Of a DNA stretch of 64,000 nt, positions 9,092 to 56,570 are shown piece by piece. How positions within the stretch are numbered: position 1 is the stretch's first letter; each line of letters starts with the position of its first letter. The stretch comes from Prevotella sp. (lineage in GTDB: Bacteria > Bacteroidota > Bacteroidia > Bacteroidales > Bacteroidaceae), in contig JAFYYV010000006.1 of assembly GCA_017557405.1 (NCBI GenBank), positions 1 through 64,000 on the forward strand, written 5' to 3'. The notes beneath the pieces were generated by a model, which worked only from the letters and a program-made list of their open reading frames with translations, made no database searches and was not told where the DNA came from. Position numbers and translations under genes: made by a program.

Positions 9092-9145
9092 GCAAGACTA
9101 TAATAATTACATCTAAAAAGCTGATTGTCAATGAGTTAGTGTTCT

Positions 9146-9268
9146 GCAAAAGGTCTATACCCGTGATTCGGAATTTGCAAAAAGGACATAATCCTGCTGT
9201 TTTTTCCTCTCAAAAGCCACAAAAAAACTGCTAAAATTATTCGTTTCGATGTTTATCCGACCTTTTGC
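9146..9268. repeat. 10-bp inverted repeat pair GCAAAAGGTC / GACCTTTTGC
   Basis: GCAAAAGGTC at 9146-9155 and its exact complement at 9259-9268 bound 103 bases of non-coding DNA. They lie in the same gene-free kilobase (8879-9947) as the other repeats. The function is unknown. Confidence 0.5.
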
Positions 9269-9402
9269 GCACATTTAGGCGATTCAAAAATTCAACATCT
9301 TGCTCGCATTCGGAGGTTCTTTGTGGTCAAACGGCCAGTCTTATTACAGATAATGGTGGTAACAATACCACTCAGAAACCCTCTTTCTTCTAATGTAAAG
9401 AA

Positions 9403-9764
9403 AATTCTGAATTTTGGTGCCCCGAGAAGGCCAACGTTTTGAAAAATTTCTTCCTCGTGGGCAAATACGCGAGTTTTGAGCGTTTTCGGAAATCGTTGAT
9501 AATCAGAAGTTTCTGTTTTCTTTACATTTTATAGCGTTGTCAAAGCTATGCAATGAGGTGGTCAAATGTATGGAATGAGGTTGTCATAGCTATGCTTTGA
9601 GGGCGTCAGATGCCACATGTAAGCGGGTCAAAGCATATCTTTGAGCGCCTCAGGTGCCACATGTGACAATTCTGGGTGTAGAAAATGAGGAAAATGGAGC
9701 GGAAAAGTCGTTTTCTCACTCGTTTTTCTTCTCTAGATTGAACAGAAAAGTCGACAAGATTTTG
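9403..9764 (+). repeat. Dispersed 22-nt-array element, copy 1
   Basis: This non-coding block recurs at 40664-41015 and, inverted, at 56154-56570. It opens with AATTCTGAATTTTGG and GAGCGTTTTCGGAAAT. It then holds six contiguous 22-nt units (9536-9667), most with the core TCA-N11-TGA. It closes with about 95 bases ending in CTAGATTGAACAGAAAAGT and GACAA. The units have no spacers between them. It lies between the M6 protease and the promoter of the next operon. Confidence 0.85.
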
Positions 9765-9852
9765 TAAATATAAATACTAGGTTTTTATTATTCCGCCACC
9801 TGGATTCATGTCGCATGGGTAGACCAACCTCACCACAAATATTCACGATTGT

Positions 9853-24138: not shown

Positions 24139-24199
24139 GCAAAAAATCTCCATTCATGGATAACTAGAAAAGAAAAAGTAAAAGAAAAACATAAAGGAA

Positions 24200-24229
24200 A
24201 CGGAAGTCGTTGATGGCAACAACTTCCGT
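24200..24229 (-). terminator. Terminator hairpin after the DUF4870-like gene
   Basis: ACGGAAGT and ACTTCCGT pair, extended by inner CGTTG/CAAC pairing. T-rich sequence follows on the minus strand. It lies about 38 bases past the stop at 24268. Confidence 0.55.
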
Positions 24230-24267
24230 GAATGTTCGCTTTTCGCGTATTTGTCCGTGTAAATAGC

Positions 24268-24675
24268 TTATTTCAAAATGCGATACTTGCCGACGAGAGG
24301 CAGTTCCTTTGCACGTCCCTTGACAACATTGACAATGCCAATGATGGCCAAGATCAATAATGCCACTTCGATAATCCACAGGAAGATGCCCACGAGGGCT
24401 GCCAACTTCCACGAAATGGCCAACAGGATGCGGCAAATGAGGTAGAGGATGATACCGCAAATGCACAGGATGAGGCCTTGGTTGGTGTGGAAACGGGCGA
24501 ATTTCGACTCTTTGGCGGCAAAGAGGGGAATGAGTACGAGAATGCCGAGGTAGGCAAGGATGCCCATCAGCTTGTTCTTTTCGATGTCTTGCGGATCGTG
24601 TTCGTTGGTGGTGTCCGCGGTGTCGTTGAGCGCTTGGATCTTCTCTTCCAGGCTTTCTTGATTGTTGTTGTCCAT
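24268..24675 (-). CDS. Small membrane protein, DUF4870/Tic20-like
   Basis: 135 residues. An acidic cytoplasmic N-terminus (about 35 residues) precedes ENKLMGILAYLGILVLIPL-type sequence, then AKESKFARFHTNQGL, and three further hydrophobic segments ending in a basic tail. The first helix plus the FARFHTNQG loop is typical of the DUF4870/Tic20-related membrane family. Function is unknown in bacteria. It sits between the GH94 and GH51 genes, with its own terminator. Confidence 0.75.
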   Translation of the reverse strand: MDNNNQESLEEKIQALNDTADTTNEHDPQDIEKNKLMGILAYLGILVLIPLFAAKESKFARFHTNQGLILCICGIILYLICRILLAISWKLAALVGIFLWIIEVALLILAIIGIVNVVKGRAKELPLVGKYRILK

Positions 24676-40663: not shown

Positions 40664-41015
40664 AATTCTGAATTTGGAGCCCACGAGAAGGCTTGCGTTT
40701 TGAAAAAAATGTTTTGTGCGGACAAATACGCGGAAAATGAGCGTTTTCGGAAATGATTGATAGCCAACGACTTTCGTTTTCTTAACATTCTGCGAGGTAG
40801 TCAGAGGTATACATCTGACCGCTCAAGGAGCCTGCTACATGTGGCATCTAAGGGTGTCAGGTACCATAAGTAATCGTGTCGTTTGCTATGTCTGAGAACC
40901 TCAGATGCCACATGTGACAATTTCCGTTGTCGAAAAGGAGGGAAATGGAGTGGAAATGCCGATTTCTTACACGTTTTCTTTTTCTAGATTGAACGGAAAA
41001 GTTGACAACTTTTTG
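40664..41015 (+). repeat. Dispersed 22-nt-array element, copy 2
   Basis: Same order as copy 1: AATTCTGAATTTGG, then CAAATACGCG and GAGCGTTTTCGGAAAT, then the array (40798-40918, 121 bases = 5.5 units), then CTAGATTGAACGGAAAAGT and GACAA. One unit is 33 bases long, as if an 11-base half-unit had been lost. It lies in the 840-base gene-free stretch between divergent genes. Confidence 0.85.
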
Positions 41016-41081
41016 TTGTGATTTTTCAATGGGATAAGAAAAAATAACGGATGAATTTATGAGATACTGAATTATTTTTTC

Positions 41082-54680: not shown

Positions 54681-54765
54681 TGGCGCAAAACCTTGCAAGT
54701 TCAGCGCAAAACCTTGTAACTTGTGGCGCAAAACCTTGCAAGTTCAGCGCAAAGCCTTGCAAGTT
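54681..54765. repeat. Four plasmid-type iterons
   Basis: Four direct repeats of 21-22 bases share GCGCAAAACCTTGCAAGTT (one A to G, one TAACTT variant), at 54681-54701, 54702-54722, 54723-54744 and 54745-54765. They are contiguous and lie upstream of the rep gene, where Rep binding sites and an origin are expected. Confidence 0.85.
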
Positions 54766-54839
54766 CCATTCCTAAGTGCCTGTCTATTAACGTGATTATC
54801 GTACCCTTAAATAAAGCTTTTGAAATATAGAATAAATAA

Positions 54840-56153: not shown

Positions 56154-56570
56154 CTTGTCTACTTTTTCGTTCATTCTAGCGTGAAATAGGGGGAGAAAAA
56201 GCGATTTTCATGCTCTTCTCCCCCGACTTTTGAGGAGTGGAATTGCAAGAAGCGGCTTCTTATACCCTTAGAAGCCGCTTCTTATCCGCTCACTTGCCGC
56301 ATCTGACCGCCACAGAAGCTACACCTGACAGTCTCATATGCCGCTTCTGACAGTCTCATATGCCGCTTCTGACAGTCGAAAAACCACGTTTTAAGGGGTG
56401 GGAAGATGTGAGAAAAACGGAAAGGCTACGGGTAGGCGACGGTACGTCGGGAATGGTCGTTGAAAACCAGCAACTTCCGAAAATGTCTATTTTTTGCGTT
56501 TTTTCGGCCAATATCCCGTTCGCTTCAAACAATGGCCCGTTTTTAGGGGGCAAAATTCAGAATTGTCTTG
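56154..56570 (-). repeat. Dispersed 22-nt-array element, copy 3 (inverted)
   Basis: Read on the minus strand: GACAATTCTGAATTTTG, then the segment with CATTTTCGGAAG, then six 22-nt units exactly (56376 down to 56245), then about 95 bases ending CTAGAATGAACGAAAAAGT and GACAAG. A REP-like palindrome (56419-56459) is nested in it. The ends ACAATTCT and AGAATTGT are complementary. It starts 23 bases after the stop of the TPR/HTH gene. Confidence 0.85.
56419..56459. repeat. REP-like palindromic repeat nested in copy 3
   Basis: GGAAAGGCTACGGGTAGGCG with GGTACGTC and GGGAATGGTCG is the reverse complement of the core found at 28627-28659 and 41889-41920. Confidence 0.7.

Follow-up and report, generated by a model that had tools for sequence, protein, structure and literature searches.

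Layout of the element in the window

The analysed window, a stretch of 64,000 nucleotides from the genome of a Prevotella sp. (the source genome), carries three full copies of a dispersed element in which a leader, a middle segment, a contiguous array of 22-nt units and a tail follow one another (Table 1). This order and these modules, as described in the original prediction, were found in all three blocks by sequence inspection and alignment. The array lengths given there stand for copies 1 and 3 with exactly six units each, but the array of copy 2 measures 122 nt by alignment instead of 121 nt. Copy 3 also has a less regular layout than described, since alignment gives it a leader of 139 nt and a middle segment of 46 nt, as compared to the usual 105 and 25 nt. 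Three copies per 64 kb is too low a count, because a fourth copy without an array is present, the tail-like stretch of which was identified by eye. A further tandem array in the window, at positions 54683-54766, consists of four repeats of 21 bp.

The 274-base accessory module upstream of copy 1 was found at six further places in the source genome, one of which adjoins a leaderless array. None of the copies had been thought to be coding and, indeed, none of 30 source-genome loci has an open reading frame (ORF) of at least 90 aa running across the element (ORFs of this minimum length were called mechanically, and one of the 30 loci lies at a contig edge).

Table 1. Positions of the element copies and their parts in the window.
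Feature	Position	Strand	Evidence or remark
Copy 1, whole element	9401..9766	+	blastn query and alignment
Copy 1, leader with core CAAATACGCGAGTTTTGAGC and TTGATAATCAG	9401..9513	+	R1 E=1e-24, copy 1 itself being in the model
Copy 1, array of 6 x 22 nt	9539..9670	+	132 nt
Copy 1, tail carrying TCTAGATTGAAC and GTCGACAA	9671..9766	+	alignment
Accessory repeat module upstream of copy 1	9121..9394	+	beside some copies only
Copy 2, whole element	40664..41016	+	blastn of copy 1, E=7e-39
Copy 2, array of about 5.5 units	40800..40921	+	122 nt by alignment
Copy 3, divergent, longer leader	56154..56570	-	R1 on leader 56457-56564, E=3.3e-9
Copy 3, array of 6 x 22 nt	56242..56373	-	132 nt
Copy 4, array-less, leader core followed directly by a tail-like stretch	24140..24263	-	R1 match 24203-24293, E=1.4e-6

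Copies and fixed lengths in the source genome

With copy 1 as the query, blastn gave 47 matches at E≤0.01 in the source genome, 26 of which cover at least 350 of the 366 bases in register; the element is therefore not a chance resemblance. Copy 3 was missed in this search. Leaders were also searched with R1, a model that covers the left 115 bases by sequence alone, excludes the array and was built from 32 sequences of six genomes. R1 gave 45 matches in the source genome at E≤0.1, 40 of them at E≤0.01. The modules of the 31 aligned copies are nearly constant in length: the leader is 105 nt long in 26 copies, the middle segment 25 nt in 30, the array 132 nt or six units in 28, and the tail 75 nt in 29. 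Two of the remaining arrays measure 110 nt, which is one unit fewer, and one measures 122 nt, while the large exception in leader and middle segment is copy 3 of the window. The 22-nt unit also occurs in arrays without leader and tail, and in arrays joined to a different tail, and must therefore be regarded as a separate module. A second element type was noted at four source-genome loci (L303, L306, L307 and L311), where the same 22-nt units are followed by an unrelated tail; at several places a segment of this tail recurs in inverted form about 250-300 bases away, in a MITE-like manner.

Distribution across Prevotella and beyond

Further copies in related genomes, which had been specified beforehand as something to look for, were readily found. 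R1 matches 186 of the 299 genomes of the genus at E≤0.01, the source genome included, in a scan that scored up to 12 matches per genome and used strict filters that lose weak matches. Because of these filters, and because some of the 299 genomes are incomplete, the 113 genomes without a match do not all need to lack the element. Of 197 further genomes drawn from the order, those listed being of other genera, four have a single weak R1 match each, at a cut-off (E≤0.001) that was stricter than that of the genus scan. At E≤0.001, 130 matches were obtained for Hoylesella timonensis DSM 22865 and 122 for strain S9-PR14, numbers in which a copy may be counted once per strand. For G016, a genome of one contig, manual removal of such duplicates reduced 126 R1 matches to 112 distinct places. 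The carriers identified in a scan for an exact pattern include many metagenome-assembled genomes (MAGs) as well as P. veroralis, P. illustrans, Hallella colorans and Leyella lascolaii, and the four exact-pattern loci outside the Prevotellaceae, none of which has an array, look like chance matches. The element family was found here only in the genus, many genomes of which hold dozens to more than 100 copies.

Conservation of the 22-nt rhythm

Of 21 loci from as many genomes, 19 have a best repeat lag of 22, with p-values below 0.05 in 17 of these 19; one of the remaining two loci has a best lag of 44 and the other shows no periodicity, so that 22 or its double is found in 20 of 21. This test covered the 210 bases after R1, which lie outside the model, with lags from 12 to 44; it took 21 of 29 loci, the other eight being too short, and 4 of the 21 come from genomes that also supplied R1 sequences. 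Behind one leader 20-mer, 13 of 15 Prevotellaceae loci (11 organisms) have a best lag of 22 and the other two one of 44, all with p≤0.05; four loci of other bacteria have neither (20 of the 49 exact-pattern loci were taken, i.e. 16 of 45 from Prevotellaceae and all four others, and 19 were tested). At the same time, the letters of the unit vary by species: the unit is TCAAAGCTATGCTTTGA in the source genome, GTGAG..CTCAC in G142, GCCATTAG..CTAATGGC in G262 and of the TTGCATGCTTTAA type in H. timonensis. The prediction that the phase is kept while the unit sequences differ, and the expectation set beforehand that the 22-nt phase is conserved in related genomes, are thus borne out in other species by both tests. 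As judged from these sequences, it seems to be the rhythm as such that is conserved.

Dyad symmetry is significant (p≤0.05) in 10 of 21 arrays, with a combined p-value of 1.2e-7 for which p-values of zero were set to 0.01 and which includes partly non-independent loci (two from the source genome, several sharing a unit type). It is not significant in 11 of 21, H. timonensis included. Symmetry is therefore frequent, but of the two features the spacing alone is found in nearly all tested loci. Within the units of the source genome, pairs 7-13 and 8-12 covary (z-values of 9.4 and 8.7; 5 of 186 units were left out), largely via two unit classes, and pair 5-15 matches below the shuffled level. We therefore do not accept this covariation as proof of hairpins within units.

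Evolution between strains and species

Lengths are also nearly constant in H. timonensis, where 40 of 42 complete copies in the fetched blocks are exactly 381 nt long and two are 382 nt long (30 copies from DSM 22865 and 12 from S9-PR14, orthologous pairs included). Other copies in this species are cut by contig ends, runs of N or other DNA, and there is also a divergent class of varied length. The median pair identity among 381-nt copies is 0.80; the 53-copy alignment was picked for this exact length, so that the absence of gaps from it is a result of selection.

The two strains are 96% identical and share each of the 12 strong copies that lie in aligned blocks; a 13th copy is present in S9-PR14 and broken in DSM 22865. 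Apparent inserts of 1.4 and 1.9 kb in two DSM 22865 copies turned out to be runs of N. Orthologous copies carry 444 substitutions in 4572 positions (9.7%) as compared to 540 in 9192 (5.9%) in their flanks (p=1e-14), based on 12 of 14 synteny-paired copies, the two omitted pairs having flanks that differ by more than 15%. There are 2 indels in the copies versus 11 in the flanks, a deficit per base that is not significant (p=0.24). The excess divergence is patchy: clustering of the differences between the strains reaches p<0.05 for 5 of 10 pairs, with a combined p-value of 3.6e-8. In 6 of 10 there is an 80-nt window to which a sampled paralogue is closer than the orthologue by at least 4 differences, a count for which no null was made. 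Judged from the sequences, such clustered excess divergence is what gene conversion among the dispersed copies would be expected to produce.

Copies of the H. timonensis type also occur in G070 (L083 and L355) and G215 (L084), where they lie in segments that are 92-95% identical to H. timonensis. Since the other matching flanks in G070 have only 68-82% identity to this species, the sequences suggest a recent interspecies transfer of whole segments. An orthologous copy position was also found between two rumen MAGs with 89% identity. For one shared copy (L177 versus L262:14705-15085), the left flank appears orthologous by eye and the right flank does not; a rearrangement through the copy is possible.

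Ends of the element and comparison with known repeats

In the source genome, the ends of the element carry TTTTGTC (or TTTTGTA) and GACAAAA in inverted orientation, and a GTGAGAC motif is present solely in the outer extension of some copies. The loci of G012, G014, G016 and G018 have TTKACAAA at both ends in direct orientation, and in H. timonensis the conserved ends are ATTTTCTTTACAAA..GGACAA. Comparison of 12 positions between the two H. timonensis strains revealed neither an empty site nor a target duplication or excision product, and the G070 flanks are too diverged to place a boundary, so that no empty-site boundary could be read there.

A search of open-licence papers in PMC found no description of this element, in line with its original designation as undescribed; BrickBuilt, PINSR and BOX came nearest. 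BrickBuilt is described as a MITE with a minisatellite in Porphyromonas gingivalis, with a leader, 1-22.8 tandem 23-nt units and a tail, IS5-like ends of the type GAGACC(TTTGCA) and 19 intergenic copies in one strain; 16 of the 19 positions are conserved between strains, and it is known in P. gingivalis and P. gulae (PMC4596501). Both elements are intergenic, dispersed, built from leader, array and tail, and found in Bacteroidales. As far as that description goes, the present element differs in that its unit is 22 instead of 23 nt long and nearly always present six times in the source genome, its ends are TTTGTC/GACAAA instead of the GAGACC type, and its family spans many Prevotella species instead of two, with counts of 40-130 copies per examined genome.

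This resemblance raises the view that the element is only a parasitic MITE-like repeat, whose ends were used by a transposase in trans and whose array is an inert minisatellite that hitch-hikes as in BrickBuilt. The dispersed and mostly intergenic location, the conserved H. timonensis ends and the co-occurrence of complete copies with divergent ones that vary in length would fit this view as well. Yet the number of units is near-fixed, being exactly 6 in 28 of 31 source-genome copies as opposed to 1 to 22.8 in BrickBuilt, and an inert minisatellite need not hold 22 nt while its letters are replaced. Moreover, the end motifs are inverted in the source genome but direct in G012, G014, G016 and G018, and no target duplication was found at the 12 compared positions. 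We consider a purely parasitic repeat with an inert array unlikely.

PINSR is, in the part of its description used here, a 188-bp intergenic repeat of Prevotella intermedia with 177 and 184 copies in two strains; terminal inverted repeats are not reported there, about three quarters of the positions are common to the two strains and the function is unknown (PMC4755523). The present element likewise resides between genes of Prevotella in high copy number at positions that are mostly common to strains, but it has 366-381 bp instead of 188 bp and contains a tandem array that this part of the PINSR description does not mention. According to the same source (PMC4755523), species of other clades were tested by PCR, P. 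veroralis among them, and apparently all of these lack PINSR, whereas our 20-mer test detected the leader core with a 22-nt array in P. veroralis. Judged by its description, PINSR may be a relative.

The BOX elements of Streptococcus pneumoniae contain an inner repeated module, the copy number of which varies. Their description presents them as dispersed modular intergenic repeats that are judged parasitic and currently transpose slowly (PMC3049150). The present element shares with BOX this dispersed, modular and intergenic nature and an inner repeated module, but the length and sequence of the inner module are unrelated and the module number of BOX varies.

Tests for a structured RNA

A transcribed row of hairpins with leader and tail would be another explanation. 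In its favour, copy 1 folds better than shuffled sequences (z-values of -2.5 on the plus and -3.5 on the minus strand). The consensus folds, made from 53 H. timonensis and 25 of 31 source-genome copies, with column-shuffled controls for all but the source-genome minus fold, also exceed these controls: the source-genome plus fold has -15.7 versus -3.0 (sd 2.7), and the H. timonensis folds have -7.4 and -11.9 versus -2.6 and -1.9. Double changes were seen in some copy for 22 of 62 pairs of the source-genome plus fold and 12 of 53 of the minus fold, and 40 of the 42 complete copies from H. timonensis have a self-complementary leader. However, each of the four folds has an unfavourable covariation term, and the two species give different folds. 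The signal is found on both strands, as DNA dyads would give, and the self-complementary leader and weak both-strand pairing fit DNA inverted repeats as well as RNA. At gathering score, Rfam gave no match on the element in the window (one tRNA only) and none in 12 loci; the best match at E≤1 in 9100-9850 is sX8 with an E-value of 0.17 and 20.5 of 50 bits. Nor is there a conserved promoter: the full Bacteroidetes promoter motif, for which we used the generally known consensus, is present in 2 of 53 H. timonensis copies on the plus strand and none on the minus strand (0.9 in shuffled sequences), and in none of 26 source-genome copies. Thus, the element does not appear to be a promoter carrier and, although the folds exceed column-shuffled controls, they are weak, so that a conserved RNA fold has no clear support. 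A structured RNA is in our opinion very unlikely.

Genomic setting and mobility

An overlap with a called ORF was seen for 2 of 43 copies in H. timonensis. The right-hand gene has the same direction as the element in 29 of 43 cases in this species and in 16 of 29 in the source genome, so that orientation to genes is without consistent bias. Among 556 ORFs of the loci used, no recurrent neighbour gene was found; the largest clusters of flank proteins comprise four organism labels, several of which are the same genome twice or syntenic relatives.

Iterons of plasmid origins, which are 22 bp long in R6K, are head-to-tail units near two helical turns that bind an initiator. The present units are likewise arranged head-to-tail near two helical turns apart, but unlike iterons the arrays have no recurrent adjoining gene, and one source-genome and one H. 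timonensis copy had no blastn match in 72,556 plasmid records. A plasmid origin was therefore rejected, and so was a phage origin, the H. timonensis copy having no match in phages. Mobilisation by a RAYT, a Y1 transposase, was rejected as well: PF01797 is present in 9 of 20 genomes with at least 12 R1 matches, as compared to 8 of 20 without an R1 match, so that 11 of 20 copy-rich genomes lack what a REPIN/RAYT system should have.

Dispersed chromosomal sites are used by Noc, SlmA and ParB, and a host protein for nucleoid organisation, segregation or division could use the phased arrays in a comparable manner. The high copy number, the positions common to strains and the conserved phase are consistent with such a role. 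So is a copy-poor stretch of 840 kb on contig 1 of G016 (1.16-2.0 Mb) with 12 of the 112 copies, which could represent the terminus or else a variable region; the sparsest 840-kb stretch in simulations averages 20.5 copies and has 12 or fewer in 2 of 2000, for a width that was chosen after seeing the data. Against this role, the noisy GC skew of G016 (20 sampled blocks) did not locate the terminus, and orientation to genes lacks a consistent bias. Furthermore, the 113 of 299 genomes of the genus without a match at E≤0.01, even if this number is affected by filters and incomplete genomes, argue against an essential host site. The strand counts in G016 are 25/35 and 18/34. Altogether, a chromosome-architecture site seems quite unlikely.

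Proposed nature of the element and its implications

Of the options in the original prediction, the structured RNA has been weakened by the folds, Rfam and the promoter search, while a protein-binding array and a non-autonomous mobile element still stand; these two are compatible and both can be true. From the negative tests we infer that the simplest remaining reading is an array that acts at the DNA level with a period of two helical turns, as a putative protein platform. In full, we give about an even chance to a family of non-autonomous modular intergenic DNA repeats of the BOX/BrickBuilt kind, with the array as a candidate helix-phased platform for protein. The element comprises a left end, a leader with an inverted-repeat stretch and a conserved core, an array of about 130 bp, a tail and a right end. 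As 22-bp units would lie two helical turns apart, equivalent and often dyad-symmetric sites would face one side of the helix, where they could hold a row of one DNA-binding protein, and this helical phasing would be the reason for the number 22. The family may have spread in the past by transposition, probably with an enzyme acting in trans. Within a species the copies now appear to stay at fixed places, and gene conversion between them would keep them alike, so that each species would have its own unit.

A bolder version, which we regard as speculative and rather improbable, would be a genus-wide and fast-evolving DNA-protein pair, in which a dimeric protein with a species-specific target binds in rows of about six to more than 100 helix-phased arrays per genome, and in which its specificity and the unit change together while the 22-bp geometry is frozen. 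If true, Bacteroidales would possess a novel type of chromosomal platform that is dispersed over the genome.

Sequence is what usually identifies a dispersed intergenic repeat; here, the spacing is kept while the letters turn over between species, which makes the element a testable case for selection on phase itself. For Prevotella, a dominant genus of gut, mouth and rumen, the findings add a high-copy repeat that may explain breaks in assemblies, offers sites for ectopic recombination and has a unit that marks the species.
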